A stretch of DNA of 64,000 nt from Rugalucina vietnamica (lineage: Eukaryota > Mollusca > Bivalvia > Lucinida > Lucinidae): assembly GCA_964017185.1 (NCBI GenBank), contig OZ024870.1, forward strand, positions 61,916,812-61,980,811, written 5' to 3'. Position 1 is the first letter of the stretch; each line of letters begins with the position of its first letter. The position numbers and the translations under genes are program-made. Shown piece after piece: positions 6,109 to 59,130 of the stretch. Under the pieces are notes generated by a model. The model was given only the letters and a program-made list of their open reading frames with translations, did no database searches and had not been told where the DNA came from.

Positions 6109-6113
6109 CTGGT

Positions 6114-8913: not shown

Positions 8914-8958
8914 ATCGAATCGAAGTCAAATCTTGAAATCAATTAACCAAAAAATTGA

Positions 8959-14198: not shown

Positions 14199-14200
14199 TA

Positions 14201-34079: not shown

Positions 34080-34088
34080 GTGTACATG

Positions 34089-35739
34089 GGTTTGCATAAA
34101 TGTATTATTTAGGGACTTTTCTTGAGGGACCAAGGGACCAGGGACCTGGTCCCTCAAGGACCAAGGGCTATAATTTAGGGACCAGGTAACAGAGGGACCA
34201 AATACAAAACGTGCATATAATGGCATATCTGTATGCATCTAATCTGCAATAGGCTATTGTGTGGACCAAAATCAGCATGTGCCGGTCCCTGAGGGATGTT
34301 TGTGTCAAGGTTTATTTTTTTTTTTTTTTTCATTGATTTTGTATCTACTTTATTAATTTAACCGTGCTATTAAAGTGTATAGTAAGATATGCCCATAGGG
34401 AAAACCAAAGAAAGAGAGAAATTACCAAGAAAGAAAATTTAAAGAAATTTGGAAGAAATAAATGAAAAGAAGGAAAACTGAAATGGAGAGAAAGAAAAAA
34501 TGAAATGAATAAAAATATACATAAAATTCTACATGTATTTTGTGTAGTTTATGCAGTGCTGTTTTAGAAGGAAAAAAGGAGAGAGAGAGAGGGGAAAATA
34601 AAATGAAAAATATACAATGTGTATTTTAAAAGAAGGAATACCAAGGAAAGAGAGAAAGACAGAAAGGAAAGAGAGAAAAGAGAAAAAAAAAATGAAATTA
34701 CAGAAAAAAAATAGAATGCTACTTTCTATTACCTTACACAGTATTAGTTTCTGCATTAATATTTTTGTACCTTATGAAAACTAACATGTCATATTCTTGT
34801 ATATTGTAAAATGAAAATCACCAACTATATGTTTATTGCCTCCAATAGACACTAATTAATGCTAATGTATGATTTATGATAATCTCTTACATTCAACATA
34901 CGTAAAAAAGGGAAAAAAACAAAGACAGAAAAAATGGCAGGTACTTCATACTCCCGGTCCCGAAATGTATCCAATCATGTGCACATACTGTTTTACTCTG
35001 AAGAAAGCACATCTGATTATTTGTCCTGTGTTTATAAGAGCGTCTAATTTCGGGACACGGAGTATGAAGTACGAAGCCAAATAGCAAACATGTATTTTGT
35101 ATGGGCCAAAAATTTCGGGACAATCATAGCTATATAGGGCAGGTATTTAGGGATTGTGTCACACATTTGTACATTTGATGCTGGTGTCTACGTAGCTATC
35201 TGGCAGTTAAGTTGCGTGAGTTGTGTAAGTTATAATAGTTACCTTTGTTAGGACGACATAAACGAAATATAGATGGAAAAAGCTATAAATAACAGAAATT
35301 TTTGCGTATTGTCATCATGTTTTAAGGCCTTACGATAGTCCTGAAGCTCTAACTGTTCCTTTCCAAGGAAACGGCCGTCAAACATACGTATGATAGACCA
35401 CTATTGTAAGTTAAGTTCTGTAAGTTGTCATAGCTGACAGTGATAAAAGATAAGTTCATTAAGGTGGACTTAAGAACATTAGATCAAAACAACATGGCAA
35501 AACAGTTAAACAGTTGCATCTAGGGCTGAGCTAAGTTCGATAAGTTACAATAGTTGCACACAATAGCAAAGCTAAATGCACGTACATGTCTGCATCTAAG
35601 TTAAGTTTGATGAGTTGTATAAGTTAAGCAAGCTGAGTTATATAGGCTTTAGATTAATAACTTGGATGAGTTAAGTTAAGCAAGTCGAAGTCTGGGTTTA
35701 ATTAGCTATGTGAGTAAGATATGTTATATGTATCATTGG
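34089..35739 (+). repeat. Outer part of the left arm of the giant inverted repeat
   Basis: It matches 58307-59044 in inverted orientation, with divergence and indels. It contains the GGGACC-rich terminal block (34110-34310), a purine-rich tract (34400-34700), a fold-back pair CATACTCCCGGTCCCGAAAT (34949-34968) / TTTCGGGACACGGAGTATGA (35048-35067), and a decayed zone of TAAGTT-like words that grades into the array. Confidence 0.7.
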
Positions 35740-38700
35740 ACAAGCTAAGTTTGTTAAGTAGAGTAAGTTAAGCAAGCTAAGTTGAAGAATAAGTTTGATG
35801 AGCTGAATAAGTTAAGCGATGAGTTGGATAAACTGAACAGTAAGTTCGATGAGTTGGATAAGTTGAGCGATGAGTTAGATGAGTTGGATAAGTTGAGCGT
35901 TGAGTTAGATAAGTTGGATAAGTTGAACATTAAGCTCGATGAGTTGCATGAGTTATACGCTGAGTCAGGTAAGTAGAGCGATGAGTTGGGTAAGTTGAAC
36001 AGTAAGTTGGATGAGTTGGATAAGTTGTAAGCTTTCGATGAGTTGGATAAGTTTCATGTTGATTTGGATGAGTTCGATAAGTTGAACAGTAAGTTGGATG
36101 AGTTGGATAAGTTATACACTGAATTCGATGAGTTGGATAAGTTGCATGCTGAGTTCTATGAGTTGCATAAGTTGAACTATAAGTTCATTAAGTTTGATTA
36201 AGTTGAACAGTAAGTTGGATGAGTTGGATAAGTTGTAAGCTGAGTTCGATGAGTTGGATAAGTTGTAAGCTGAGTTCGATGAGTTGGATAAGTTGTAAGC
36301 TGAGTTGGGTAAGTTGCATAAGTTGAACAGTAAGTTCGATGAGTTCGATAAGTTGATCAGTAAGTTGGATGAGTTGGATAAGTTGTAAGCTGAGTTGGGT
36401 AAGTTGAATAAAGTGAACAGTAAGTTGGATGAGTTGGATAAGTTGTAAGCTGAGTTGGGTAAGTTGCATAAGTTGAACAGTAAGTTCGATGAGTTCGATA
36501 AGTTGAACAGTGAGTTGGATAAGTTGTAAGCTGAGTTCGATGAGTTGCATAAGTTGAACAGTAAGTTGGATGAGTGAAATAAGTTGTAAGCTGAGTTGGG
36601 TAAGTTGCATAAGTTGAACAGTATGTTGGATGAGTTGGATAAGTTGTAAGCTAAGTTGGGTAAGTTGCATAAGTTGAACAGAAAGTTCGATGAGTTCAAT
36701 AAGTTAAACAGTAAGTTGAATGAGTTGGATAAGTTGCATGTTGAGTTGGATGAGTTGGATGAGATGGATAAGTAATACAAAGAGTTCGATGAGTTGGATA
36801 AGTTGCATGCTGAGTTGGATGAGTTGCATAAGTTGAACTATAAGTTCGTTAAGTTCGATAAGTTGAACAGTAAGTTGGATGAGTTGGATAAGTTGTAAGC
36901 TGAGTTGGGTGAGTTGCATAAGTTGAACAGTAAGTTGGATGAGTTGGATAAGTTGTAAGCTGAGTTGGGTAAGTTGCATAAGTTGAACAGTAAGTTCGAT
37001 GAGTTCGATAAGTTGAACAGTAAGTTGGATAAGTTGTAAGCTGAGTTGGATAAGTTGCATGTTGAGTTGGATGAGTTGGATAAGTTATACGAAGAGTTCG
37101 ATGAGTTGGATAAGTTGCATGCTGAGTTGGATGAGTTGGATAAGTTGAACTATAAGTTCGTTAAGTTCAATAAGTTGAACAGTAAGTTGGATGAGTTGGA
37201 TAAGCTGTAAGCTGAGTTGGGTAAGTTGCATAAGTTGAACAGTAAGTTGGATGAGTTGGATAAGTTGTCAGCTGAGTTGGATAAGTTGCATAAGTTGAAC
37301 AGTGAGTTCGAAGAGTTCGATAAGTTGAACAGTAAGTTGGATGAGTTGGATAAGTTGTAAGCTGAGTTGGGTAAGTTGCATAAGTTGAACAGTAAGTTGG
37401 ATGAGTTGGATAATTTTTAAGCTGAGTTGGGTAAGTTGCATAAGTTGAACAGTAAGTTCGATGAGTTCGATAAGTTGAACAGTAAGTTGAATGGGTTGGA
37501 TAAGTTGTAAGCTGAGTTGGATGAGTTGGATAAGTTGCATGTTGAGTTGGATGAGTTGGATAAGTTATAGGAAGAGTTCGATGAGTTGGATAAGTTGCAT
37601 GATGAGTTCAATGAGTTGCATATGTTGAACTGTAAGTTCGTTAAGTTCGATAAGTTGAACAGTATGTTGGATGAGTTGGATAAGTTGTAAGATGAGTTGG
37701 GTAAGTTGCATAAGTTTAACAGTAAGTTCGATGAGTTCGATAAGTTGAACAGTAAGTTGGATGAGTTGGATAAGTTGTAAGCTGAGTTCGATGAGTTGGA
37801 TAAGTTGCATGCTGAGTCGGATGAGTTGAGATCGTTAAGTTCGATAAGTTGAACAGTAAGTTGGATGAGTTGGATAAGTTGTAAGCTGAGTTGGGTAAGT
37901 TGCATAAGTCGAACAGTAAGTTGGATGAGTTGGATAAGTTGTAAGTTGAGTTGGGTAAGTTGGGTAAGTTGCATAAGTTGAACAGTAAGTTCGATGATTT
38001 CGATAAGTTGAACAGTAAGTTCGATGATTTCGATAAGTTGTAAGCTGAGTTGCATAAGTTGAACTATAAGTTCGTTAAGTTCGATAAGTTGAACAGTAAG
38101 TTGGATGAGTTGGATAAGTTGTAAGCTGAGTTGGGTGAGTTGCATAAGTTGAACAGTAAGTTGGATGAGTTGGATAATTTGTAAGCTGAGTTGGGTAAGT
38201 TGCATAAGTTGAACAGTAAGTTCGATGAGTTCGATAAGTTGAACAGTAAGTTGAATGAGTTGGATAAGTTGTAAGCTGAGTTGGATGAGTTGGATAAGTT
38301 GCATGTTGAGTTGGATGAGTTGGATAAGTTATACGAAGAGTTCGATGAGTTGGATAAGTTGCATGCTGAGTTGGATGAGTTGCATAAGTTGAACTATAAG
38401 TTCGTTAAGTTTGATAAGTTAAACAGTAAGTTGGATGAGTTGGATAAGTTGTAAGCTGAGTTGGGTGAGTTGCATAAGTTGAACAGTAAGTTGGATGAGT
38501 TGGATAATTTGTAAGCTGAGTTGGGTAAGTTGCATAAGTTGAACAGTAAGTTCGATGAGTTCGATAAGTTGAACAGTAAGTTGAATGAGTTGGATAAGTT
38601 GTAAGCTGAGTTGGATGAGTTGGATAAGTTGCATGTTGAGTTGGATGAGTTGGATAAGTTATACGAAGAGTTCGATGAGTTGGATAAGTTGCATGCTGAG

Positions 38701-40404
38701 TTGGATGAGTTGCATAAGTTGAACTATAAGTTCGTTAAGTTTGATAAGTTAAACAGTAAGTTGGATGAGTTGGATAAGTTGTAAGCTGAGTTGGGTAAGT
38801 TGCATAAGTTGAACAGTAAGTTCGATGAGTTCGATCAGTTGTAAGCTGAGTTGGGTAAGTTGCATAAGTTGAACAGTAAGTTCGATGAGTTTGATAAGTT
38901 GAACAGTAAGTTGGATGAGGTGGATAAGTTGTAAGCTGAGTTCGATGGGTTGGATAAGTTGAACAGTAAGTTGGATGAGTTGGATAAGTTGTAAGCTGAG
39001 TTGGGTAAGTTGCATAAGTTGAACAGTAAGTTCGATGAGTTCGATAAGTTGAACAGTAAGTTGAATGAGTTGGATAAGTTGTAAGCTGAGTTGGATGAGT
39101 TGGATAAGTTGCATGTTGAGTTGGATGAGTTGGATAAGTTATACGAAGAGTTCGATGAGTTGGATAAGTTGCATGCTGAGTTGGATGAGTTGCATAAGTT
39201 GAACTATAAGTTCGTTAAGTTTGATAAGTTAAACAGTAAGTTGGATGAGTTGGATAAGTTGTAAGCTGAGTTGGGTAAGTTGCATAAGTTGAACAGTAAG
39301 TTCGATGAGTTCGATCAGTTGTAAGCTGAGTTGGGTAAGTTGCATAAGTTGAACAGTAAGTTCGATGAGTTTGATAAGTTGAACAGTAAGTTGGATGAGG
39401 TGGATAAGTTGTAAGCTGAGTTCGATGGGTTGGATAAGTTGAACAGTAAGTTGGATGAGTTGGATAAGTTGTAAGCTGAATTGGGTAAGTTGCATAAGTT
39501 GAACAGTAAGTTCGATGAGCTCGATAAGTTGAACAGTAAGTTGGATGAGTTAGATAAGTTGTAAACTGAGTCGGATGAGTTGGATAAGTTGCATGTTGAG
39601 TTGGATGAGTTGGATAAGTTATACGAAGAGTTCGATGAGTTGGATAAGTTGCATGCTGAGTTGGATGAGTTGCATATGTTGAACAGTAAGTTCGTTAAGT
39701 TCGATAAGTTGAACAGTAAGTTGGATGAGTTGGATAAGTTGTAAGCTGAGTTGGGTAAGTTGCATAAGTTTAACAGTAAGTTCGATGAGTTCGATAAGTT
39801 GAACAGTAAGTTGGATGAGTTGGATAAGTTGTAAGCTGAGTTCGATGTGTTGGATAAGTTGCATGCTGAGTTTGGAGAGTTGCATAAGTTGAATTATAAG
39901 TTCATTCAGTTTGATAAGTTGAACAATAAGACAGTAAGTTGGATGAGTTGGATAAGTTGTAAGCTGAGTCGGGTAAGTTGCATAAGTTGAACAGTAAGTT
40001 GGATGAGTTGGATAAGTTGTAAGCTGTGTTGGGTAAGTTGCATAAGTTGAACAGTATGTTCGATGAGTTCGATAAGTTGAACAGTAAGTTGGATGAGTTG
40101 GATAAGTTGTAAGCTGAGTTGGATGAGTTGCATAAGTTGCATGTTGAGTTGGATGAGTTGGATAAGTTATACGAAGAGTTCGATGAGTTGGATAAGTTGC
40201 ATGCTGAGTGGGATGAGTTGCATAAGTTGAACTATAAGTTCATTGAGTTCGAAAAGTTGAACAGTAAGTTGGATGAGTTGGGTAAGTTGCATAAATTGAA
40301 CAGTAAGTTCGATGAGTTCGATCAGTTGTAAGCTGAGTTGGGTAAATTGCATAAGTTGAACAGTAAGTTCGTTAAGTTCAATAAGTTGAACAGTAAGTTG
40401 GATG
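35740..40404 (+). repeat. Left tandem array of 9- and 12-bp units
   Basis: Monomers are nonamers such as GATAAGTTG, GATGAGTTG and CATAAGTTG with 12-mers such as AACAGTAAGTTG and TAAGCTGAGTTG, usually combined 9+9+12. A longer order is visible: the marker TTATACGAAGAGTTC recurs near 37087, 37567, 38329, 38659, 39139, 39619 and 40167, mostly 480 bp apart, and blocks 38659-39138 and 39139-39618 are nearly identical. Reading frames on both strands are artefacts of the unit, except that the + frame (Asp-Glu-Leu-Asp-Lys-Leu) is free of stops at the array edges. Confidence 0.92.
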
Positions 40405-40684
40405 AAACATTCGCGGTGTCTCTTTTAACTGTATACCTTTAGCTTTTACCTAAGTCAAAGGTCAATCTTAAAAAGAATAGTTGTTTTTGAACTTGACGGC
40501 ATTGTAATGATTTGAAGTATTTAGTTGTCTGCCTGATATTTTTTAAGTATCTTCGTTTCTTTGTTGTTGATAATATTTAGAATAAACAAAAGAAATACAG
40601 CTTGTTTATGTTTCATTGCAAAATACCACTTCGAAGATTTCGTCTCAAATGAGTGCTGGGAGACAACCAACAACATCACTGTCT
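40405..40684. other. Left edge of the core of the giant element
   Basis: Non-coding sequence between the array and the first SINE; no partner on the other side of the core was found. Confidence 0.5.
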
Positions 40685-40750
40685 ATGGGTAGCACAGAGG
40701 CCTGGTAGTAGAGCATCAGACTCTGAATCAAGGGTCCTTGGTTCCATTTT
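40685..40750 (+). repeat. tRNA-derived SINE head, related to tRNA-Gln(CTG)
   Basis: GGTAGTAGAGCATC resembles an A box region, and GACTCTGAATC matches the anticodon arm of eukaryotic tRNA-Gln(CTG). GGGTCCTTGGTTCCA stands for the B box but departs from GGTTCRANTCC. The acceptor stem does not close, so it is a degenerate SINE and not a functional tRNA. Confidence 0.5.
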
Positions 40751-41038
40751 CACTCGGAGCACTGTTGTGTCCTTAACTTCTCACATTTCTGGTTTATACC
40801 AAGGAAACATTTGCTCCTTCCCAACACAGCTTAGCTAATGTTTACTAGGACAATATACCTAAAACAAATGAACAGTTTACTCTTGTGCCGATGTTTACTA
40901 GCTTACTGAAAACTAGCAAGCTAATCTACATCCATTGTTCGTAAAATGTACATCTGTTTAAAGGAATATAGTCTGTATTACCATATTGCTAAAAAAGACA
41001 TGCTGCCTATCAGTGTTGAGCGATACACATGTATTTGT

Positions 41039-42188
41039 AGCTCACCTGAGCCTTAGGCCTACAGGTGATTTTATAGGATAGAAAGGTACCCATCCTCTGT
41101 TGTCTTCCGCCAAAGATCTTTTTCTCTGATACCAATAGGCCAATCAAATCTAAATTTTATATGAAGACAAGTTTTTCTAGAAAGGTTGGAAGTATGTGTA
41201 TATAAAATATCCAGGTCACATAACCAAGATGGCCTCCATGTCCATGTATGGGTAAAACCCTATTATAATCTCGAGAAACCAGTGGATCGATTTTACGAAT
41301 TTTTGCATGAATCATTAAAGACTAAGTACAGTAACTACAATGAACCACGTATATATATGTATGTGATGACCATGACCTATTTTTATAGCTAGGTCAACAC
41401 AAGTCGCCTTTGCATTTGAATTGGGAAAATGTCATTTAAAGGGAAAATCTTGCAGGGAATGGGCACAATGACTGAAGATTCTGAAAAAGATATGGACCCT
41501 AGGGGTTCATCTGCCTCCCCAGGGCCGTGGCTAAATCACCATATCACCATAATATTCAAACATCTCTGAAATCACTATGCCAATCAGAGCCAAATTTTAT
41601 AAAAAAGCATCCTTAAGAAGAGGGAACCAATGTGTATATAAAAATCCAGGTCACATGACCAAGATGGTCACCATACCCAATTATGGTAAAAAAAAAATAT
41701 TCTCTGGAACCAGTGGACCAATTTCAATGAAACTTGACATAAAACATTGATGACTACAGCACTACAATGTGCATATAAATCATGACCCTTTGAAGACCAT
41801 AACCTATTTCAAAGTAAAGTCAACATGAAACGCCAGGGTAAACAGTTAAAACATTATTTAAATGGTAAATCTTTAAATGGGCGGTTAGACTGAATTTTTA
41901 AGATTCTGAAAAACTGGACCCCAAGAATTCATCTGCCCCCAACCCTTGGGAATATGTATACATGTTTATTACCGTAATATTCAAACATCATCTCCTCTGA
42001 AACTTCTTGCCCAATCAAAGCCAAAATTTATATGAAACATTTATAGGAATGGGGAACCAATAGTTATGTAAAGGTTCTAGGTCACGTGACCAAGATGGCC
42101 ACCATCAGCTAAAAATCTCAGCTACTTTTCTTTTGTCCAATGACTGTTGTCTCGCAGGTGAGCATCGCACCCCTTTGGGCTATTTGTT
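41039..42188 (+). mobile_element. Hairpin-headed tandem-cored element inside the giant element's core
   Basis: It begins AGCTCACCTGAGCCTTAGGC at 41039 and ends CTCGCAGGTGAGC (42151-42163) then CCCTTTGGGCTATTTGTT. The core has two to three diverged units with GGCCAATCAAATCTAAA, AAGATGGCCTCCATG and ACCATGACCTATTT. It is more diverged than the 12125 copy, so it is older. Confidence 0.68.
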
Positions 42189-42479
42189 TTATGTGTGTGC
42201 TAGATCACGTGCAAATCGGTTGTACTGGAGCTGAGGTTTGCTTTCTGCTTTCAATACTCTTTAAATTTTCAGATGGAAATTATAGCACAAATGGTATCAA
42301 TGATAGCTTTCAAGCTGTGCAACATCCTTTGTGCATTAGTATCTAGTTGCAACATCATTGCCCAGTACGTCGTTGCTGAGTACGGTTCATGTCTCTGCCC
42401 AGTACGGTAAAAGCTATTTTAAGCTAATTATAAATAGAATCGTTAAAAAGCTATTTATAAATAAAATCGTTTAGATATA
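42189..42479. other. Non-coding spacer
   Basis: Contains a local direct repeat of an AAATAGAATCGTTAAAAAGCT-like word (42433 and 42461). No gene. Confidence 0.45.
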
Positions 42480-43299
42480 CTCAAGGACTTTGAAAACGCC
42501 TCACTTGTTTTATTGCTGCTCACTCTCAGAATACATGATATATCGGCAAAAATATTTTTGAACTAAAAAGTACATTCAGTCTGCTTAACTTCGATACCGA
42601 AACCGAAGCGTCAACGACAGTTATTAACGTCATACACAATGAATTCAAGCGTTACCCAGAATTCAACAAAACCAAAGTATGGGGACGGTTAATATTCATC
42701 AGATACAACACGATTTCTGGAAAGAAACACCAAAAGCCAAGCAAATGCTGTTGGTTTGCTTTCATTTGCACTAAAACAGCGGTAGTTACGCCACTTTTAC
42801 GTTTATTAAGAAAACTTTATTTTTTGCGTGTAAAATGAAACGAATTCAAAAGATTTTGTGCATAATGAATAGGCAAAGACTTACGTAAAAATTACAATCA
42901 CTTTCGACGCTGTAATCGAATGGCTATAGGTATTTTGAACACTTACGCTTGACGTCAACAAATAACGTTAGCGCCTCAAACGACATTGAAAGACATCCCT
43001 CATTTTGATTTTGCTTTTTCTTGTGCTTAAGGTCGTTAGCTCTCACTAGAGGCGGTTTGTTTTTACAAAATCCGTTTATTGTAGCCGTTTTAAGGTTTTC
43101 TTGCGTCTCGATGACGTCTGTGAAAACAGCTGTAGCAAACAAACAAGCGAACACTTTTTTATGGATCTTTATGGATAAATATTGTTTATCGTGTTGGCAT
43201 ATACGTTACTATGTTCATTTTGTACATCCGCTCAACTTTAAGAAAGTTTTTAAGCAAAATATAACCGATGTACAGTGAGGCGTTTTCAAAGTCCTCTAG
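42480..43299. mobile_element. 820-bp TIR element with TA target, AGGACTTTGAAAACGCC family
   Basis: AGGACTTTGAAAACGCCTCA at 42484 is matched by its exact complement ending at 43295 (22-bp perfect inverted repeat, extending with mismatches to 42480 and 43299). TA flanks both ends (42478-42479 and 43300-43301). No transposase. Confidence 0.75.
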
Positions 43300-43800
43300 T
43301 ATATATTGACAATGTAACTTACATAATGAGTACCTTTGGTGGTCCAACCTTTACATGTATATAGATTTTTAATTTTTGTTTTCATTTAATTACGTTCAAG
43401 TTTAAAATTCATTGTCAAGAAGATTAAATATTATTGTATTCTGCAGACCCTTAACCCCACTTGTATAAAGTAAAACTTAAAATTGAAGGGTATATATATT
43501 TTATTTATTTTTTTGAAATGCATTTTTATTCCGTCGTGACATTTTGTGGATTAACGCCCCAGTCAACGATGTTTCAGTCACTGTCATGTCGGGCAAGAGC
43601 TCAAGTTTTTTAACAGTCTTAAAGATTCAACGTGTTTTGTGAAAGGCCTCATATCTGCTACCCATTTGGATTCTCACCCAAAGACCTTTTTGTTCTGAGT
43701 CCGATCATCGACCGATAGGCAACTGCGCAACCCTGAACGAACAATTTAAATAAAATGTTTTTCCAACATGCACAATTTAATGATGAACGATTTGGATGCC
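43300..43800. other. Non-coding spacer
   Basis: No gene recognised. It includes words such as GCCCCAGTCAAC that recur in nearby SINE-like sequence. Confidence 0.4.
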
Positions 43801-43808
43801 CATTAAGT

Positions 43809-43861
43809 GTTTTGTCTGTTTGTTTGTTTGTTTGTATGTTTGCTTGCTTGCTTGCTTGTTT
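43809..43861 (+). repeat. (TTTG)n/(TTGC)n microsatellite
   Basis: Run of TTTG then TTGC tetramers. It may be the 3' tail of the minus-strand SINE that follows. Confidence 0.85.
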
Positions 43862-44050
43862 GTATCAAGGGTTAACGAGGGAGTCAACAAATTTTCAGTC
43901 ATGTCGGCAAAGCGGCAATGTTCCATGGTTATAAGACAGTTTTGGGCCAATGTGCCTTGCTCAATGACACAACACGGCAGCCCAAGTGGGGATCGAACAC
44001 AGGCCCTCTTGATTTGGAGTTAGTTGGTCTACCGCTAGGCCGTGCTTGGG
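43862..44050 (-). repeat. tRNA-derived SINE
   Basis: On the minus strand: CACGGCCTAGCGGTAGACC (A box at about 44024-44042), CTAACTCCAAATC, and TGTGTTCGATCCCCAC (B box, 43985-44000). It is followed by the complement of TGTGCCTTGCTCAATGACAC, a core segment common in marine invertebrate and fish SINEs. The TTTG-type repeat at 43809-43861 would be its tail. Confidence 0.75.
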
Positions 44051-44084
44051 ATTGCCGTTTATCCCAAGTGACGTGGAGTCTATT

Positions 44085-44753
44085 TCTAAAGCCATGTTCA
44101 TGTGCAACATTTGCACTCGGGTGTAATTTTGCACACTGGGTGTAAATTTGAACCCCGGGTGTATGGTATGCCATGAAAACTGTGTTTTAAGAAAATACAC
44201 CAGGGTGCAAAACTACACCCTGGTTTAAATTGTCTCCTACTTTCCAGGTGGAGTAAATTGAATTGCAGCCGGATAATTTTTGCACCCGTGTGCATTGTGT
44301 GCATATGAACGCAAAACGCTTAATCGTTACACATTTTTGTTTGTTTGAATTGATACTTTACGTCCCAGTCAACAGCTTAGGTCATGCCTGGAGATTGCAT
44401 CCACTTTATGGGCCTTTCACCCAAAGTTAGGATGTCATGACATCCAAAAATGCTAAAAATATAACCATCTAGCTAAGCCAATAAGGCTTATAGGTATAAC
44501 CAGTTTGACTTGAAACCATTTTTCTTGGACAGGCCCAAGCCGCAGCGGTTTACCAGTAGTCAGATGACCAGTCAGTAGCGAACAAGCTTTGCCCTTCTAC
44601 ATCAAATGACCTCTGTTAATAAGGAGCATTTTAGTCAAAATTTAATGTCAAAACCAGGTGAATATGAACATGATCTCGCTGCATATGGCCGCTACACAAG
44701 CGGGTGAAAATTTTCACCCGGTTGCAAATACAGCACATGAACACGGCTTTAGA
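44085..44753. mobile_element. 669-bp TIR element, TCTAAAGCC family
   Basis: TCTAAAGCCATGTTCATGTG at 44085 pairs with the complement ending at 44753 (20 of 21 bases). Subterminal palindromes such as GGGTGAAAATTTTCACCC (44702-44719) and repeated GGGTGTAA/TTACACCC-like words lie inside. No clear target duplication; no ORF. Confidence 0.65.
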
Positions 44754-44944
44754 TTGTAATTTAGTACTGCAGATCTATTGAGCAGCGAAAGACAACGTGT
44801 TTGTCCTAAACACCGCGTTTTTCATTGTGGGCATATAGTATGCCATAAAGGCTCTCTGAAGAGCCTAAAGTAGCCTAAACACCCATTTTTTCATTAATAT
44901 GCTCACTGCTCTTAAAGGATCTAAGTTTTATATTTAAATCCTAC
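44754..44944. other. Short non-coding spacer
   Basis: Nothing recognised. Confidence 0.4.
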
Positions 44945-45720
44945 AATGGGGAACTATCAGTGGTCGATGTGGTAGAGTATGGCACTGTAGATCCCTACTG
45001 GGGAGGTTGCGGTAGAGAAGGGCGCTATAGATGTTGTAGACGTAGCAGTAGAGTATGGCGCTGTATATTAATAACATGGAGTTTGCGATAGATTTTGGCA
45101 TTGAATATCCCACAGGAGACGTTGTGCTAGAATATGGCACATTGCGGTAGAGGATTGTGCGGTATACTACTCGGTACGTTGTGGTAGAGTCCGGCACTGT
45201 ACATTCCTACGTTGACGTTGCAGTAGAGTATGGCGCTGTTGATATCTGCTGGGGACGTTGCGTTGCGCTAGAGAATTGCACTGAAGATACCTAGTAGGGG
45301 CGTTGCAGTAGTGTTTACATCTCTGCACCGTACTGATGCTATGTTGCCACTGTCTCAGATGACAGTCAGTCATGTCAGGACAAAGCCACAACAAACACAT
45401 AATCTGTGCACCATACTGATGGTATGGTTGCCCCAAACCCATATCTGTAGATTTCTACTGTGGATGTTGCAGTAGAGTATGTCGTAGATTCCTATTAGAA
45501 ACGTCGCGGTAGAGTGTGGCGCTGTAGATCTCTACTGGGTACGTCGCAGATGAGTGTGGCGCTATATGTCTCTACTGGGAACAATATGGTACAGCATGGC
45601 GCTGAAGATCCCTACTGGTTTCGCTGTGGTAGAAAATAGCGCTGTAGATCACAACCTGGGATGTTGCGGAAGAGAAATGCACAGTGGATCTCTACTGATC
45701 CTTGAATTTTCTGTAAAAAT
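44945..45720 (+). repeat. Degenerate minisatellite of ~55-60 bp units
   Basis: About a dozen diverged units built on TACTGGGGACGTTGCGGTAG and AGTATGGCGCTGTAGAT. Minus-strand ORFs across it are products of the repeat. Confidence 0.75.
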
Positions 45721-46149: not shown

Positions 46150-46152
46150 TAA

Positions 46153-46891: not shown

Positions 46892-46894
46892 TAA

Positions 46895-47468: not shown

Positions 47469-47470
47469 TA

Positions 47471-48399
47471 CGAGGGTCATTCAATAAGTAATGCAATATT
47501 GGCCATAATTTTTCGTTTGAACACGTTATTTATGTTTGATTTAGCTTTCTTGAAATATAAATTCAATTCGCCTTCTGCGAGACAGTTCAACACCGAGTCA
47601 CATGCTCTACTTCCTGTTGCCTAGCAACAATATAACACTGTGTAAAGGCACTTGGCCACGACTCTTAAAACCGTTGCCATGGTGACAGGAAAACCAAAAT
47701 AAACGCATTCACTTTATTTTCTTACACCGAACTTAATATAGTTGCATTTAAAGTTCAAGATAATGCAATCTGATTGATATATTTTAAATGACACCCAATC
47801 AAAGTTGAAAAAATGACTAAAATTTCTCGATCGAAGGGTGAAAAATGGGGGTAGAGATACAATTTCTGCTACAATTTGACGTCTAGTTTGTTTAATCGAA
47901 TATTTATACACCTATTTGTATCTGCCATTGACGCTTTGTAAACTACTTGCTATAAAATGCAAATCTCAGATAACATACTTCGTTGCCTAGCAACCAAAAT
48001 CTATGGAAATGCATAAAACTGAAATTGCATAGGTTCTGGCGTTGCTAAGCAACAGTTGACACGCATGGGGCTGTATGAACATTGCAGTTGCCTAGAAAGT
48101 TCTGGCTAAGGTGACATTACACAAACATGTATATAGATAGCTATTTAAAACACCACTAAAGAAATACCAAAGCTTTATGTTTATTTATTTAATTTTTGAA
48201 AAGTGGTTTTCGTGGCCATGACACCTGCGCTGCCATTCTATGGTTGCTAAGCAACATAAAGTGTATGGTCCGATTTAGTTGATGTTTATTTTCCTTAATG
48301 CAGATTGAATCAAACTTTAAAAAATTAAAAACATTGCCTCTGTCAGATAAAAATACAAAAAATACGCTACGTATTGCATTACTTTTTGAATGACCTACG
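47471..48399. mobile_element. Mariner-type MITE carrying X-box motifs
   Basis: CGAGGGTCATTCAATAAGTA at 47471 pairs with the complement ending at 48399 (25 of 27 terminal bases), with TA duplicated at 47469-47470 and 48400-48401. The TIR resembles Tc1/mariner ends. No transposase is left in the 929 bp. The interior has an unusual density of GTTGC(C/T)(T/A)AGCAAC palindromes. Confidence 0.82.
47616..48255. promoter_or_regulatory. Cluster of four X-box (RFX-type) palindromes
   Basis: GTTGCCTAGCAAC at 47616-47628 and 47982-47994; GTTGCTAAGCAAC at 48041-48053 and 48243-48255. A related GTTGCCATGGTGAC lies at 47673-47686 and a half-site GTTGCCTAG at 48087. The RFX consensus is GTNRCC(0-3 N)RGYAAC, which the first pair fits exactly with a 1-base spacer. 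Binding is not shown. Confidence 0.6.
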
Positions 48400-48410
48400 T
48401 ACTTATATTA

Positions 48411-49039
48411 GAGAGGTTGAGAAAATAAACTTGTAACGTGTACGTGTACTTGTAGCTTTATTTACCCGTACACGATCGTTTTGAGTGTAAAATCGTTTGA
48501 GAAAATCGAACGTGTACGTGTAGATTTCATAAAGTATATGCAGCTTTATTGTTTATACATGTGTTGATATATGAAAGTAAATATGGATGATTTATTGTTA
48601 GCCTGACTTTTAGACAACGATGATGAGTTAATTTTATTGTCACAAGTTTGTTCCGGCTCCGATGTGCCCTCTTTTGAAAAGGGTATCGACCTAGACACCT
48701 ACACAGAAGAGCAATCCAAAGCAAGTTTTAAGAAAGTACATACCTACATACATATATGGTCACATGTACGTCGATTCGTCTTTGGTCAGATATACTTCGG
48801 CTGCACGTGCAAAACGATTTGGCAACGCTTCATCGAACTTCGTTTCTGCTTGTACCTACCTGACCTATCGATGGAAACATATAAAGAAAACTTACAAGTC
48901 GCAAATTTATTTCATTCACAGCCTAACTGATTCTCAACGTGTAGCGAGTATTTTGAACTTGTAATAAATGACGAAGTTTGGGGATAAAACTGTTCTACAC
49001 GTACACGTACAAGTTACAAGTTCATTTTCTCAACCTCTC
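48411..49039. mobile_element. 629-bp TIR element, GAGAGGTTGAGAAAAT family (TA target)
   Basis: GAGAGGTTGAGAAAATAAAC at 48411 pairs with the complement ending at 49039 over about 45 bp, including ACGTGTACGTGTA words. TA flanks both ends (48409-48410 and 49040-49041). It sits nine bases from the preceding mariner-type MITE. No transposase. Confidence 0.75.
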
Positions 49040-49041
49040 TA

Positions 49042-49896
49042 TTGTCTCCATCTTTACACTTCTTTTCTGTAAGGTTACTTGAAAACCATAGAGAAAGTTT
49101 TTCTCATGAAGGAACTTGTGTTAACATAAAAAGCAACTATTTTCCCTTTCTTCAGTTTTTTATCAGGCGTAAAAACTTTATCTGTGTTTCCGCTAACATG
49201 CCGAAAAAAATCAAGGTCGGTAGGTAGGCAAATCTTTTTATTGTTTCTCTATTTTTTTTTTTTTTTTTTTTTTTTTTTTGTTGAAAACCAGTAAAAATTC
49301 ATAATATGCAACTTTATTCATCTGAAATACTAGAAAATGACAGATATTGAATAAAATATAATTGTTAGATCCTTTGGAAGCAGTAAAAACATTCAAAGAG
49401 AGAAGGTGGGCCATATTGTACAATTTCGGGTAATGAACCTTCATCAGTGACCCTTCACTAAACCGGCAGCAAAAGTCAGACATTCATGATCGCTACAATT
49501 TCTAGAATTTACACAAGTATCGTCTAAATCAAAGAATAATATTCCAAAAGAGGCCAAATATTCTAAATTCTGTTAAGATGGTGATTCTTAACATACAACA
49601 TATTTTAAATATTCCAAATATTTTCACTGATCTCAAAGGATCAAAAGAAAAATATAATCTGCACTATGGATGATGTACGGGGAGACTTTTCAGGGCCGCC
49701 ACACGGCACAATACCAGCTGCAGTAATAGCAAATAAAATATAATTGTTAGATCCTTTGGAAGCAGCAAAAACATTCAAAGAGAGAAGGTGGGCCATATTG
49801 TACAATTTCGGGTAATGAACCTTCATCAATGACCCTTTACAAAACTGGCAGCGAAAGCCAGACATTTGAAGTTTGAAACATAATCGAACTTAAAGA
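49042..49896. other. Right edge of the core with local duplication
   Basis: A T-run of about 27 is at 49252-49279. A ~130-bp block beginning TTAGATCCTTTGGAAGCAG occurs at about 49364-49483 and again at about 49746-49865. No gene. Confidence 0.6.
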
Positions 49897-52800
49897 ACAT
49901 TCAACTTATAGTTCAACTTCTGCAAATCATCCAACTCAGCATACAACTTATCCAACTCAACGAACTCAGTGTATAACTTATCCAACTCATCCAACTTACT
50001 GTTCAACTTATGCAACTTACCCAACTCAGCTTACAACTTATCCAACTCATAGAACTCAGTGTATAACTTATCAAGCTCATCCGACTTACTGTTCAACTTA
50101 TGCAACTTACCCAACTCAGCTTACAACTGATCCAACTCATCGAACTAACTGTTCAACTTATGCAACTTACCCAACTCAGCTTACAAATTATCCAACCCAT
50201 CCAACTTACTGTTCAACTTATCGAACTTAACGAACTCAACATGCAACTTATCCAACTCATCGAACTCAGCTTACAACTTATCCAACTCATCCAACTTACT
50301 GTTCAACTTATCAAACTAATCGAACTTACTGTTCAACTTATGCAACTTACCCAACTCAGATTACAACTTATCCAACTCATCCAACTTACTGTTCAACTTA
50401 TCGAACTTAACGAACTTATAGTTCAACTTATGCAACTCATCCAACTCAGCATGCAACTTATCCAACTCATCGAACTCTTTGTATAACTTATCCAACTCAT
50501 CCAACTCAACATGCAACTTATCCAACTCAGCTTACAACTTATCCAACTTACTGTTCAACTTATCGAACTCATCGAACTTACTGTTCAACTTATGCAACTT
50601 ACCCAACTCAGCTTACAACTTATCCAACTCATCCAACTTACTGTTCAACTTATGCAACTCACCCAACTCAGCTTACAACTTATCCAACTCATCCAACATA
50701 CTGTTCAACTTATGCAACTTACCCAACTCAGCTTACAACTTATCCAACTCATCCAACTTACTGTTGAACTTATCGAACTCATCGAACTTACTGTTCAACT
50801 TATGCAACTTACCCAACTCAGCTTACAACTTATCCAACTTATCCAACTTACTGTTCAACTTATGCAACTTACCCAACTCAGCTTACAACTTATCCAACTC
50901 ATCCAACTTACTGTTTAACTTATCTTTATCGAACTTAACGAACTTATAGTTCAACTTATGCAACTCATCCAAATTAGCATGCAACTTATCCAACTCATCG
51001 AACTCAGCGTATTACTTATCCAACTCATCCAACTCATCTTCCTATAACTTATCCAACTCATCCAACTCATCTTACAACTTATCCAACTCATCCAACTTAC
51101 TGTTCAACTTATCCAACTCATCGAACTCAGCTTACAACTTATCCAACTCATCCAACTTCCTGTTCAACTTATGGAACTCATCAAACTTACTGTTCAACTT
51201 ATCGAACTTATCCAACTTACTGTTCAACTTATGCAACTTACCCAACTTAGCTTACAACTTATCCAACTCATCCAACTTACTATTCATTTTATCGAACTTA
51301 ACGAACTTATAGTTCAACTTATGCAACTCATCCAACTCAGCATCCAACTTATCCAACTATCGATCACATCATATAACTTATCAAACTCATCGGACTCAAC
51401 ATACAACTTATCCATCTCATCGAACTCAACTTACAACTTTACCAACTCATCCAATTTACTGTTCAACTTATCCAACTCATCGAACTCAGCTTACAACTTA
51501 TCCAACTCATCCAACTTACTGTTCAACTTATCCAACTTATCGAACTCAGCTTACAACTTATCCAACTCATCCAACTTCCTGTTCAACTTATCGAACTCAT
51601 CAAACTTACTGTTCAACTTATCGAACTTATCCAACTTACTGTTCAACTTATGCAACTTACCCAACTCAGCTTACAACTTATCCAACTCATCCAACTTACT
51701 ATTCAACTTATCGAACTTAACGAACTTATAGTTCAACTTATGCAACTCATCCAACTCAGCATGCAACTTATCCAACTCATCGAGCTCTTCGTATAACTTA
51801 TCCATCTCATCCAACTCAACATGCAACTTATCCAACTCATCCAACTCAGCTTACAACTTATCTAACTCATCGAACTTACTGTTCAACTTATCGAAATCAT
51901 CGAACTTACTGTTCAACTTATGCAACTTACCCAACTCAACTTACAACTTATCCAACTCATCCAACTTACTGTTCCACTTATGCAACTTACCCAACTCAGC
52001 TTACAACTTATCCAACTCATCCAACTTACTGTTCAACTTATCGAACTTAACGATCTCAACTCATCCAACTCAGCATGCAACTTATCCAACTCATCAAACT
52101 CAGCTTACAACTTATACAACTCATCCAACTTACTGTTCAACTTATCCAACTCATCGAACTCAGCTTACAACTTATCCAACGCATCCAACTTACTGTTCAA
52201 TTTATCGAACTCATCGAACGTACTGTTCAACTTATCGAATTCATCGAACTTACTGTTCAACTTATGCAACTTACCCAACTCAGCTTACAACTTATCCAAC
52301 TCATCCAACTTACTGTTCAACTTATCGAACTCAACGAACTTATAGTTCAACTTATGCAACTCATCCAACTCAGCATGCAACTTATCCAACTCATAGAACA
52401 CATCGTATAACTTATGAAAATCATCAGACTCAACATGCAACTTATCCAACTCATCGAACTCAGCTTACAACTTATCCAACTCATCCAACTTACTGTTCAA
52501 CTTATCCAACTCATCGAACTCAGCTTACAGCTTATCCAACTCATCGAACTCAACTTACAGCTTATCCAACTCATCCAACTTACTGTTCAACTTATGGAAC
52601 TTAACGAACTAATAGTTCAACTTATGCAACTCACCCAACTCAGCATGTAACTTATCCAACACATCGAACACATCGTATAACTTATCAAACTCATCGGACT
52701 CAACATGCAACTTATCCAACTCAACGAACTCAGCTTCAACTTATCCAACTCATCCAACTTACTGTTCAACTTATCCAACTCATCGAACTCAGCTTACAAC

Positions 52801-54117
52801 TTATCCAACTCATCCAACTTTCTGTTCAACTTATCGAACTCATCGAACTTACTGTTCAACTTATCGAAATCATCAAACTTACTGTTCAAGCTATGCAACT
52901 TACCCAACTCAGCTTACAACTTATCCAACTCATCCAACTTACTGTTCAACTTATGCAACTCATCGAACTCAGCTTACAACTTATCCAACTCATCCAACTC
53001 ACTGTTCAACTTTTCGAACTCATCGAACTTACTGTTTAACTTATGCAACTTACCCAACTCAGCTTACAACTTATCCAACTCATCCATCTTACTGTTCAAC
53101 TTATGCAGCTTACCCAACTCAGCTTACAACTTATCCAACTCATCCAACTTACTGTTCAACTTATCGAACTTAACGAACTTATAGTTCAACTAATGCAACT
53201 CATCCAACTCAGCATGCAACTAATCCAATTCATCGAACATTTCGTATAACTTATCCAACTCTTCCAACTCAGCTTACAACTTATCCAACTCATCAAACTC
53301 AGCTTACAACTTATCCAACTCATCCAACTTACTGTTCAACTTATCGAACTTAACGAACTTATAGTTCAACTTATGCAACTCATCCAACTCAGCATGCAAC
53401 TTATCCAACTCATCGAACATTTCGTATAACTTATCCAACTCTTACAACTAAGCTTACGACTTATCCAACTCATCAAACTCAGCTTACAACTTATCCAACT
53501 CATCGAACTTACTGTTCAACTTATCGAACTCATCGAACTTACTGTTCAACTTATCGAACTCATCGAACTTACTGTTCAACTTATGCAACTTACCCAACCA
53601 TGCTTACAACTTATACATCTCATCCAACTTACTGTTCAACTTTTGCAACTTACCCAACTCAGCTTACAACTTATCCAACTCATCCACTTACTGTTCAATT
53701 TATCGAACTTAACGAACTTATAGTTCAACTTATGCAACTCATCCAACTCAGCATGCAACTTATACAACTCATCGAATATTTCGTTTAACTTATCCAACTC
53801 ATCCAACTCATCGAACTAACTGTTCAACTTATGCAGCTTACCCAACTCAGCGTATAACTTATGCAAGTCATCGAACTCAGCATGCAACTTATCCAACTCA
53901 TCAAACTCAGCGTATAACTTATCCAACTCATCGAACTTACTGTTCAACTTATGCAACTTATCCAACTCATCGAACTTACTGTTCAACTTAACCAACTCAT
54001 CGAACTTATTCTTTAACTTATCCAACTCAGCGAACTCAACATGCAACTTACCCTACTTATCGAACTAAACATTCAACTTAGGTTACTCAACTTACTGAAC
54101 TCTTTGAACTTAACTTA
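49897..54117 (-). repeat. Right tandem array, inverted relative to the left one
   Basis: On the minus strand it shows the same 9- and 12-bp units (GATAAGTTG, AACAGTAAGTTG, TAAGCTGAGTTG). The same longer word TTATACGAAGAGTTC appears near 50474 and, with variants, elsewhere. Near its outer edge (53816-54046, minus strand) the Asp-Glu-Leu-Asp-Lys-Leu frame is stop-free for 76 codons. All plus-strand ORFs here (Asn/Ser/Leu- or Gln/Leu-rich) are by-products. Confidence 0.92.
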
Positions 54118-54309
54118 AATATTAAGACATATTATAAAGTATGATATCCTATGTTCCCCAACCTATATGCTAACTATTATAACTCATCCAACTCAACTTT
54201 CATTGTTTAGTATCCATGAATAGTTCGTTCTACACATCAGCTACTGTTTGTTATATTAAATGCAACTATAACAACTTATCCTACTCAACTTACATCTTTG
54301 ATCATCCCG
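54118..54309 (-). repeat. Decayed outer zone of the right arm
   Basis: Scattered CAACTTATCC-like words that become rarer outward, mirroring 35210-35739. The LINE begins at about 54310. Confidence 0.55.
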
Positions 54310-54516
54310 TACGGTATAAGTATCTTCAATATCTATCTATCTATCTTTTCATACTGCAGCACCCTCTCACGAGTATTATGTGCAGTCGCGCTGTCAGTGC
54401 AAGAATAAAAGCTAGATTCTAGCAGATGTGAAAGTAAAAACAGTGAGAATGATAAAAAGTTTGATAGTGTTAGTGCAGAGTGATATTTAAAAGCAGGTTA
54501 AAAACAGTGTTAAAAT

Positions 54517-57500
54517 TTATGGGGACCTATGTTTGATCTGGCAGACCCCTTCTTTGAAGGCGTCAAGATCAGTCCTAAGCACAAGTTCCGAGGGGAGCCT
54601 GTTCCAAAGAACAATTGTGGCTGGATAAAAAGACTGCTGATAATACTTTGTTTGAGTATGGATTTGTCTATACGAGAGAGGGTGCATGTGTCGGGTGAAT
54701 CTCTGGGGTTGCTCAAAATATGTTGGCATCTGTATTGCCACATGACCATATACAATTTTATAAAACATGATTAGCCTAGAGTCAATGCGTCGATTTTCAA
54801 GTGATCGCCAACCTAGGTTGTCAAGCATGTGTGAGACACTGTCATAAGTAGAATAGTTGTTTTTGACCCATCTGGCAGCTCGTCTTTGTGTCATTTCAAT
54901 TTTTAAGATGTTTTCTTTTGTATGGGGGGTCCAAACTGAGGAGGCGTATTCGACCTGCGGTCTAACTAGGGTCTTATATGCTAATTCCTTAACCTGTTCA
55001 TTTTTAGTTTTTACATTTCTCTTGATGAAGCCGAGTGTTCTGTTTGCTTTACCTGTAATTTCATTTATGTGATGATTCCAACTTAGATCTTGAGAGATGT
55101 TGACGCCGAGATATTTAGCACTGTCTACTGATTCTAATACCTGACCATGGAGAGTGTATTGAGACTGGAGTGGTTGCCGGGATCTTGTTATGTGGAGAAC
55201 TTGGCATTTTCCTGGGTTAAATTCCATGTCCCAGGTCCGTTCCCATTCCTCCAAGGTATCTAGGTCAGACTGTAATATATTTGCATCTTCAAGTGAGGTT
55301 ACTGTTAAGTAGACTGCCGTATCGTCGGCGAACAACCTTACCTGAGACTGTATATTTTGAGGCAAATCATTGATGTAGAGCAGGAAGAGGAGAGGGCCGA
55401 GCACAGAACCTTGTGGCACACCTGATGTCACAGGGACCTCCGCTGACCTCTCCCCCTCCAACACTACTGCCTGGGTTCGTCCCAAGAGAAAAGCTCGGAT
55501 CCAGTTAAATGTATTGCCTTTGACACCATGCTGAGAAAGTTTAAAGAGTAATTTTAAGTGATTTACCTTGTCAAAGGCTTTGCTGAAGTCTAGCAGCACT
55601 AAATCTGTTTGGTTACCTTTCATGAGCTGTCTTCCTAGGTCTTCAACTAATTGGAGTAACTGTGTCTCACAAGATCTTTTCTGCCTAAAACCATGTTGAA
55701 GATCATATAAGATGTTATGCTTATTGAAGTGAGCAGTAATATTCGAAGCAATTATATGCTCCATCACCTTGCACAATATACAAGTCAAGGAGATGGGCCT
55801 ATAATTGGAGGGATCACTTTTCTCACCTTTCTTGAAAATGGGGCTTACATTGGCTTTAGTCCAGTCAGAAGGAAGTGTACCAGTGGCAAGAGATTTTTCA
55901 AAGATCAGTTGGATGACAGGGGCAATCTCCACTCTCAATTCCCTTAGTACAATGGGTCTAATTTCATCAGGGCCGGCTGCTTTGTCTGGTCGCAAGTTAT
56001 AGAGTAATTTGATGATTCCATTCAGGTTAATGTTGATGTCTGGCATTTGAGGGTAGCTACATTTGAATTTATCGGGGATATTTCTATTGAAATACTGCTG
56101 AAGCTTATCAGTGCAGATCTGGCCAAGTTTTAGTGGGGATAGCTGTGAAAAAACTGATTGAAACTGTCTGTTTAAAATGTTTGCCTTTTCCTTATTTATG
56201 GAGGAGGTTTGGTTTGTACGAGGGTCATTCAGAGGGGAGACACCCTGTGCATCCTGTCTTGCATTTTTAATAAGTGAAAAGAGCTTTTTAGGTACAAATC
56301 CTGAGTCATTTCCAGTGGTGTCACTTCCGTCTTCAGTCAGTCCAAGTATGTTTTGAAGGTAATTGTTGTAGGCTGTCTTAATTTTACTTTGCACAAGATG
56401 CTTAACCTGTTTGAAGTGGTGTCTGTCCTTTGGTCTGCCTCTCTTCTGTTTTTGATAGAGGCTGTCTCTTTTCCTGACAAGGCGTTTAATTTCTTGGGTA
56501 ATCCAAGGTAGGCTTCTTTTAGTGCCAAATTTCTTGACTGGGATATACTTAGAAATGCCGCTTTGTAGAGCATTCTTAAAAGCAGACCAAATGACTTCTA
56601 CACACTCCTGATGGAGATTTTTTAATATTTCGTCCTTCTTTTCATTCATGTAGGTCCGGAAGTCTGTCCAGTTTGCTTTTTTGAATAAAGGGACTTTGCG
56701 GGGTACTTGTTTACTGATATTTGGTTTGATATTTATGGAAGCGACCACAATGTCATGGTCAGCAATGCCAGGTGAAACTTTAACTTCATTTACCAGGGTA
56801 TGGTTGGATGTTAGGAAAAGGTCAAGGACGTTTTCACCTCTGGTTGGCTCATTTACCATTTGCACCAGGCTGAAGTCATCCAAAAGATTGACAAAGGTTT
56901 CATAGTTTGAGGGAAAGTCTGACCCAGATTTCATTGAGGGTACATGCTCATGGTCCCATGTAAACTTTGGAAAATTAAAGTCTCCAAGCAACCATAAAGT
57001 ACCCTTCAACTGTGCAGCCATATCAAGAGAACGGTTAAGTTCTAATAAACTCTCAGAGTCTCCCTCATCTGACCTGTAATATGCTGCTACATATATAGGT
57101 TTTGTTGTGACAGTATCTACCTTGACCCAGATAATCTCACAATTTGTTTTGAGCTGCTTCTGCTCAGTTGCAATGAGGTTATCTTTTACAAGGATAAAAA
57201 CACCGCCACCGCAAGTATCAGTCACCCTATCTTGTCTAAATGAGGTATAACCTAGAGAGTTTGGGAAGATTTCACTGCTCAGATGGTTTTTGGTGAGCCA
57301 AGACTCTGTGCCTACTACTATGTCCGGTCTGTGTTCGTCAATAATAGTTTGGAACTCTGCTTTTTTGTTTATTATTGAACGACAATTTATGTTTAGTACT
57401 GTTAAAGCTTGCTTGCTTGACGTGGCCCGGATTGGCGAAGGTGATCTAGGATTGGAGGGTGTAACCGGTTCCTCCGACAGGGTGCTAAAACTATTTACAG

Positions 57501-58014
57501 AAGAAAATGAGCTAAATGCAGACTGTGCTGATGTTGAAAAATTTAAGCCATCACAGTTTGAGCAAATCCAGGAAAAAGAGCGGTCTGTGTTTACCAAATC
57601 ATCATACATGTCTTTTCCAAAGGACTGACAGTATATATGAAACCACTGACCACACCCGTCACAGCTAATAGCAGGATCAGTATCACAAACTTCAAGGGCA
57701 CATGTTCCACATGGGAAATCAATAGGACCTGGGTTGGTCTCTATGTCTGCTGAAAGTGAAATAAGTATGAAGCATAAGTAGGATAGGGATGAGTCCCTTT
57801 GCTTCTTCAAGGGGATGTGCCACTTGGTAGATTTCATAAGGCTAGCTTGGCAAGAAATCCAGGTGGGTTCCAAGTTATTTGGTCTAATACATGGCCTAGC
57901 TAGTCTGTAGGTGATCTCCTTTAGATCTGAGGGTGTTTGAACCACTACAAGTACTGTAAGAGTACAAATGATGGGCAATAATATACCTGTAATCATTTTC
58001 AATTTCTGTTCCAA
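54517..58014 (-). CDS. CR1-like ORF: signal-like N-terminus, 2A motif, PHD finger, endonuclease, reverse transcriptase
   Basis: The protein has 1165 residues. Residues 8-26 are hydrophobic ([19 protein letters not shown]). DIETNPGP at 90-97 matches the 2A consensus D-x-E-x-N-P-G-P and is preceded by hydrophobic [12 protein letters not shown]. Residues about 102-155 have the C4HC3 spacing of a PHD finger (CGTC, [18 protein letters not shown]). The AP-type endonuclease follows ([30 protein letters not shown]). RT motifs: [42 protein letters not shown] in pattern terms, and FADD (codons 55321-55332). The C-terminal [12 protein letters not shown] and WNRLPSELV segments are typical of CR1/jockey elements. 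The single long ORF is unbroken; a separate ORF1 is absent. Start at 58014 is chosen as the first ATG. Confidence 0.9.
   Translation of the reverse strand: [1165 protein letters not shown]
57724..57747 (-). other. 2A-type ribosome-skipping motif (DIETNPGP)
   Basis: Codons GAC ATA GAG ACC AAC CCA GGT CCT encode the motif. In known 2A sequences the bond between the last Gly and Pro is not formed, so a 96-residue N-terminal peptide would be released and the endonuclease-RT would start at Pro97. 2A-like sequences have been reported in non-LTR elements of sea urchins and other invertebrates; activity of this one is inferred. Confidence 0.75.
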
Positions 58015-58313
58015 GGTCTTTTGCCAATGTTGGTCACTTATATCTTTGAGAAGTTGAAAAACAAATATGGCCGCCGCTTACCTCCTAGATAATAGGGAAT
58101 TATTTACTGAGGAGAAAAACGTTCGTAGAGAAGTTTTGCTGCAAAGATCGCTCAATTCAGCGACACAGTAACCTACATTACTACAAATCAAGTATGTTTG
58201 ACCACAAAAACCAAGGTTATTATTGATGAAACACTGTTTTTTCAGAAATTTTCTGAGACGAAGAAAGAAATCAGCTGTTAGTTGCACGACGCATGCGCAC
58301 AATATATACGGTA

Positions 58314-59044
58314 AGCTGTAAGCTGAGCTAGATGAGTTAAGCTAAGCTGAGAATTCGTTGCGTTTTCGCCTCAAGAAAGACCCGAACTATCAGCCAAATT
58401 GTGTATACTTTTTGTCCCTATGTGCTGAGCATGATGAGCTGAGTAAGTTGAGTTGAGTTGAGATGTGACACTGCACCTTTCCATTGTGTAGATATTCGGG
58501 ACCGGGAGTATGAAGTATAAGCCGAAAAAATAGGAGGAAAGAAAAATGAGCTTAGAAGAGGGATGTAAAATTGAATAACAATACCTAAAGCTTCATTAAA
58601 TCTTTTTAAAACCAGGCACCTTTAATTTACTGATTAAAATGAAATAATCCTGAACATATCCATTAAACACTGACCACCAAATTACCAAAATTGTCATTTT
58701 CCCAATTTAAAAATTAAATATATCTAGATCTAATAAATAAATAGTTATACAGATAAAGTAGATTCAAAATCAATGAGAAAATGTTTAAAAGATAATTGAA
58801 CTCCCAAAATAAAAATAAAAATCAGCCCTGGGTATAGGGAATAGAGACAATCCTTCTTCAGGGACTGGCGCAGGCTGATTTTGGTCCATACTATAGCTCA
58901 CTGCAAATAAGATATGCCATAAATGCACATATTTTTATTTGGTCCCTCTATTACCTGGTCCCTAAATTATAACCTTTGGTCCCTGAGGGACCAGGTCCCT
59001 GGTCCCTTGGTCCCTCAAGAAAAGTCCCTAAATTATACATTACC
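58314..59044 (-). repeat. Outermost part of the right arm of the giant inverted repeat
   Basis: Inverted match to the left outer arm: GTAAGCTGAGCTAGATGAG words, CGGGACCGGGAGTATGAAGT (58499-58518), TAAAGTAGATTCAAAATCAA (58756-58775), and the GGTCCCT-rich terminal block (58850-59036). Confidence 0.7.
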
Positions 59045-59130
59045 GTGTACATGTCACGGAAATGTTATCCAAATGGCATTCTCATTCAATTTATTTTGAT
59101 TTTGGACACAATTATTCAACCTTTTCTCTT

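Follow-up and report, generated by a model that had tools for sequence, protein, structure and literature searches.

The window analyzed here, a 64,000-nucleotide stretch of contig OZ024870.1 from the lucinid bivalve Rugalucina vietnamica (assembly GCA_964017185.1, positions 61,916,812 to 61,980,811), contains at 34089–59044 a unit of 24,956 bp in which two inverted arms carrying tandem arrays surround a core. The length includes a long interspersed nuclear element (LINE) nested in the right arm. A preliminary description made from the sequence had taken this unit for a Foldback-like transposon of exceptional size, with a 9-bp target duplication, inverted terminal blocks, collinear inverted landmarks, opposed arrays of one 9/12-bp unit around a 9.5-kb core, and no visible transposase. 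On reanalysis, each of these structural points held; the statement on size held in part, as set out below.

Three occurrences of the 9-mer GTGTACATG are present in the window, starting at 9446, 34080, and 59045; the latter two lie directly outside the two inverted copies of the terminal block. They form the left (34080–34088) and right (59045–59053) copies of the target site duplication, alike in 9/9 bases. The left terminal inverted repeat (34089–34306, + strand) is rich in GGGACC; the right one spans 58844–59044 on the − strand. When 34099–34306 is compared with 59041–58844 in inverted orientation, the ~200-bp ends are 83% identical over 209 columns, the match to the right end starting at 34099. 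With 35501–54300 masked, this pair is the top inverted match of the whole window (217 bits, compared with 86.9 for the runner-up). Read from outside in, the right end is GGT-AATGTAT-AATTTAGGGAC and the left end GGT-TTGCATA-AATGTAT-TATTTAGGGAC; both ends start with GGT, and the left tip is seven or eight bases longer than the right, depending on the alignment. Beyond the 9-mer, the flanks have no inverted similarity to each other. No terminus-like cluster of GGGACC was found at the inner edges of the arrays, so each arm resembles one half of a single unit and not an element complete in itself. In having long inverted arms that contain short tandem repeats, and a target duplication outside both ends, the unit conforms to the structural class of foldback-type elements with terminal inverted repeats.

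The left flank (34021–34081) is itself a copy of a repeat present in inverted orientation at 14139–14199 (61 bp, 87%), and the match stops inside the target duplication. When the flanks are joined over a single GTGTACATG, the paralogue agrees with 8/10 of the next right-flank bases, but with only 9/20. That the repeat at 14139–14199 could be an empty-site paralogue is therefore only a hint.

One further right terminus was obtained by a search at the protein level. A 58-amino-acid translated frame spanning the right terminus was searched against a protein library and returned a single protein, P0121 (49 amino acids, E 3.4e-8), which is located on a 2.08-Mb contig and has no exact counterpart in the translated window. 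P0121 is identical to window positions 58977–59048 in 24/24 residues, ending in ..LNYTLP followed by Cys. The Pro codon of this stretch contains the last two bases of ..ATTACC, which is the end of the element predicted from the position of GTGTACATG. Past the Pro codon, one Cys codon is common to both and the flank then differs; inwards, the sequences differ beyond ~70 bp. The common Cys codon is plausibly due to chance (2/64 codons). To judge from this translated match, P0121 appears to represent a second copy of the right terminus, which speaks for a mobile family and defines where the element ends on the right. It also answers the first objection named in the preliminary description, a lack of any other copy with these ends. 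The combination of the same end with another flank and another interior is a possible pattern for relatives within a foldback family, as with Tetris and DAIBAM.

Between the terminal repeats and the arrays lie spacers with short inverted landmarks. The left spacer (34307–35594, +) contains landmarks at 34325–34353, 34942–34964, and 35217–35241; the outer right spacer (58307–58843, −) contains two, at 58753–58781 and 58495–58517. The pairs are 34325–34353/58781–58753 (29 columns, 93%), 34942–34964/58517–58495 (23/23 identical), and 35217–35241/54195–54171 (25 columns, 88%), and all three are collinear, their order being preserved in both arms. The second landmark additionally forms a local inverted repeat within the left arm (34942–35073).

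The left array occupies 35595–40405 (+, dense from ~35780) and the right array 49898–54290 (−, dense to ~54080). Both are built of the same 9/12-bp units with a 30-bp period, in inverse orientation. At 35000–40499 the array motif was hit 282 times forward and never in reverse, and at 49500–54499 it was hit 255 times in reverse and never forward, whereas the background (1–33500) gave 8 forward and 7 reverse hits. AGTT spacings of 9 or 12 bp account for 380/422 spacings on the left and 324/376 on the right. The arrays stop abruptly where they meet the core (40405 and 49898) and thin out towards the outside. The arms measure ~6.3 kb on the left (34089–40405) and ~5.2 kb on the right (49898–59044, LINE excluded). 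In the outer right arm, three array-motif hits (58331, 58447, and 58452) have an orientation contrary to that of all others in this arm. We also considered a coding function for the arrays, as spacings are nearly all multiples of three, yet in-phase stops occur in 46/1516 codons on the left and 48/1343 on the right. Since a common 12-bp unit includes TAA and stops are present in the in-phase frames, we regard both arrays as non-coding.

Comparison of the two arrays with each other gave a picture different from that of the ends. When the left array was divided into fifteen 300-bp blocks, eight had a right-array partner at an identity (rounded) of at least 0.90, the best reaching 0.96; the two outermost left blocks have best right-array identities of 0.65 and 0.67. 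Mean best block identity across arms was 0.867 (left to right) and 0.849 (right to left), and within arrays 0.878 (left) and 0.829 (right). Among the ungapped stretches that the two arms have in common are some of 410 bp (97.8% identical), 425 bp (96.7%), and 434 bp (96.1%). The best cross-arm partners do not follow a mirror order (Spearman 0.26, p 0.35 for 300-bp blocks; −0.05, p 0.75 for 90-bp blocks). This likeness is not what one duplication with uniform divergence afterwards would leave. Because array blocks are 96–98% alike and out of mirror order while the outer ends are 83% alike, the pattern suggests exchange between the arms or renewal from other copies, of which exchange between the arms seems somewhat more likely.

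The core (40406–49897, 9492 bp, no strand assigned) contains five inverted-repeat pairs that resemble small nested elements (candidates at 42458–43321, 44085–44753, 46148–46896, 47469–48401, and 48409–49041). For none of these was a clear target duplication established, the candidates being 2–4 bp long. A Pfam search of the core in six frames at E 0.1, with stops read as X, returned no domain. One part of the core (41032–42116) is similar to dispersed repeats outside the element, and overall the core has the appearance of common repeat-rich DNA or of filler in decay. Two other repeats were noted here: a direct repeat of 135 bp near the right border of the core (49350–49484 and 49732–49866), with copies 95% alike, and a degenerate tandem-like family with many copies ~40 bp apart (44965–45695) in the GC-richer part.

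The LINE in the right arm (54317–58306, −; outer bounds tentative) has an intact open frame of 1186 codons (54520–58077) encoding a PHD finger, an endonuclease, and a reverse transcriptase. A 7-bp TACGGTA at 54310 and 58307 flanks it and may tentatively be taken to mark its bounds. The best match in the protein library, P0001, stands for 49 clustered sequences and comes from a contig of 2.43 Mb; the alignment covers 98% of the query at 100% identity. The window does not encode the exact P0001 sequence, which therefore comes from another, nearly identical LINE copy, and the LINE looks recent. The unit is thus inflated from within: without the ~4-kb LINE the element is ~21 kb or less, and shorter still if the small core elements came later. 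Among the best 120 of 205 matches, the named LINE relatives fall in bins of Candidatus Thiodiazotropha, Sedimenticola, and a gammaproteobacterium, with one in Batillaria attramentaria. As Thiodiazotropha are inhabitants of lucinid clams and Batillaria is a genus of snails, the LINE-bearing contigs in bacterial bins are probably host DNA; these relatives by themselves would make a mollusc the likely source of the window.

Elsewhere in the window, a retroelement at 4543–8925 (−), which we take to be DIRS/Ngaro-like, has adjacent frames with reverse transcriptase (PF00078) and tyrosine integrase (PF00589) domains. To the left of the element, 28494–32411 (+) is an open LINE frame of 1306 codons with endonuclease, reverse transcriptase, and zf-RVT. 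Other tandem arrays, with units of ~128–180 bp and some also with other periods, lie at 14452–15213, 22257–22848, 23027–24692, and 59246–60018. Scans of the window for Rfam families (at gathering thresholds) and tRNAs gave none.

We conclude, with a probability of about 0.78, that the unit is a DNA transposon of the cut-and-paste type with foldback architecture, non-autonomous and presumably moved by a transposase from elsewhere. It is a real foldback-type transposon, a large variant of an architecture already known. The assignment is made by structure, and no transposase links the element to a superfamily. Since the six frames of the core contain no Pfam domain, a transposase acting in trans is likely. 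Such an enzyme, putatively of the Mutator-like element (MULE) group (Mutator, Phantom, or Rehavkus type), would recognize the GGGACC-rich outer ends, perhaps aided by the many weak sites in the arrays, pair both ends, and insert the unit by a 9-bp staggered cut. A role of the array units as transposase binding sites is suggested by analogy with Galileo, for which extra sites are described (PMC3688188). Gene conversion or unequal crossing over may have passed array sequence from arm to arm, and the LINE, perhaps along with some of the small core elements, would have been acquired after insertion.

Several observations weigh against this conclusion. The ends diverge by 17%, in addition to the seven or eight bases at the very tip. 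The 9-bp duplication is well supported but alone is no proof, because two random 30-bp zones of the window shared a 9-mer in 1709 of 200,000 trials (0.85%). The second copy matches the window element for only ~70 bp, at one terminus and at the protein level, on a contig that may be another species', and its interior differs from that of the window element. No second copy with arrays emerged: a protein search with the array frame yielded 365 candidates, none at 1e-10, though the window's own frame was likewise not returned. Exact DNA pattern scans gave 0 matches in viral_contigs and genome_contigs, from both of which the window's own genome is possibly excluded. Finally, no transposase was found, the six-frame Pfam search of the core having returned no domain. 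A loose GGGACC pattern did return three IMG/VR loci (L001–L003), whose common stretches of 15–37 columns lie within GGGACC runs in GC-rich sequence; we judged them to be due to chance or convergence.

The alternative that survives best concerns the superfamily only and overlaps the preferred explanation: a foldback transposon outside the MULEs, for example of the P, hAT, or an undescribed superfamily. It is favored by the fact that the foldback form is described from several superfamilies (PMC3169594, PMC4079207), and a transposase that could decide for MULEs is missing from the core. We nevertheless consider it unlikely, if by no means negligible, because the 9 bp found here fall within the 8–11 bp given for MULEs (PMC6446971), whereas Galileo makes 7-bp duplications according to the cited account (PMC3573991). 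The GG-starting ends and asymmetric tips also recall MULEs: G or C is reported at the first three bases of most members (PMC13359780), and GGT at both ends here agrees in 2/3. A P-type transposase with THAP had no Pfam match in the core; a non-autonomous copy would not carry one anyway. The P element itself makes an 8-bp duplication.

The second alternative is a composite, in which two one-armed or partial foldbacks inserted nearby, or one that was split, flank 9.5 kb of ordinary host DNA, whether or not the outer ends ever mobilized the entire unit. The core, with its nested inverted-repeat elements, its lack of Pfam domains, and its segment at 41032–42116 resembling repeats outside the element, does look like ordinary repeat-rich DNA; the outer ends are 17% divergent; and in Drosophila, units lying between foldbacks have been recorded (PMC6431247). 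A composite does not account for the 9-bp repeat outside both outer ends or for inner edges devoid of a terminus-like GGGACC cluster, and the middles of foldback elements vary anyway, as in Tetris. We therefore hold it to be improbable. Less probable still is an old inverted duplication of a satellite-bearing segment, with the terminal blocks as the ends of the duplicated segment and the edge 9-mer shared by chance, at the 0.85% rate given above. Homogenization of the arrays without mirror order is indeed satellite-like, but the terminus copy in P0121 breaks off at the predicted end in another context, and the flanks carry no inverted similarity beyond the 9-mer. An assembly artefact, that is, a hairpin or chimeric join between the arms such as can arise from foldback artefacts described in long-read data (PMC12870357), can practically be discarded, as a copied strand would be near-identical whereas the arrays are 81% alike (~19% different) at the best long alignment and the outer ends 83%, and the LINE is confined to one arm.

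If the unit is a non-autonomous foldback transposon, as we prefer, it may tentatively be placed in a giant foldback family of molluscs, with satellite-like arms of several kb made of 9/12-bp units, homogenized by arm-arm exchange while the outer ends drift; we rate this as possible rather than probable. Such a family would be a ~20-kb mobile unit able to carry any cargo in its core and to seed inverted satellite arrays in the genome. MULEs are present across the mollusc genomes of one survey (PMC10294476). Among the papers retrieved on foldback elements in molluscs and bivalves, judged from titles and the starts of abstracts, no mollusc foldback element like this one was evident. The origin of satellites from transposons, on which the element bears, has been raised in bivalves with Helentron-type carriers (PMC7492417). 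If confirmed in the genome, the element would extend foldback arms from the ~1–2 kb of the published examples cited here to 5–6 kb and add a mollusc to the hosts of satellite-armed foldbacks, and the two arms of one transposon could be compared for exchange.

Among known systems, Drosophila FB elements, which the unit resembles in described form, have arms of short tandem repeats, make 9-bp duplications, and measure a few kb. The nine duplicated bases, GG-starting ends, arrays within the arms, and unequal tips recall by analogy the MULE-type foldbacks Tm1, Tetris, and Rehavkus-1_TC. Rehavkus-1_TC of Tribolium castaneum, which belongs to the MULE-related Rehavkus group, is described with satellite arrays in its inverted termini (PMC10218199), and 9-bp duplications are listed for its group (PMC6446971, Table 1); both features are found here. 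Unlike our element, it totals 9.5 kb and has a 164-bp unit in mostly five and eight monomers. A transposase, which is not seen here, is present in its group and includes a PHD finger, and the hosts listed for the group are arthropods and annelids. In Tm1 of root-knot nematodes (Mutator/Phantom), the inverted ends are composite and contain short tandem repeats, the very tips carry asymmetric 7-bp motifs, the target duplications are of 9 bp, and a transposase is mostly lacking (PMC3169594). It differs in its length (1080 and 2593 bp), its 13–15 bp units, its terminal motifs, and a known transposase-bearing member. Tetris and DAIBAM of the Drosophila virilis group combine an outer flanking domain, tandem repeats, a variable middle, and 8–10 bp duplications; like the window element, Tetris is a non-autonomous foldback with a relative that has the same ends (PMC4079207), but its arms reach 1,735 bp with 220-bp units, compared with arms of ~5–6 kb and 9/12-bp units here. 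Galileo of Drosophila (P superfamily) has long, internally repeated ends, but, besides its 7-bp duplications, its arms reach only ~1.26 kb (PMC3573991). As to size, the longest complete arthropod MULEs are reported to measure 9972 bp, and their ends reach 1193 bp at most (PMC13359780). The size called exceptional in the preliminary description stands against the single foldback or MULE elements of up to ~10 kb in the papers cited here, after subtraction of the ~4 kb of later LINE from its 25 kb; it does not stand against Ising's TE, in which very large units between Drosophila foldbacks form composites of hundreds of kb (PMC6431247). Thus, the form of the element is known, and its size and the likeness between its arms are unusual.

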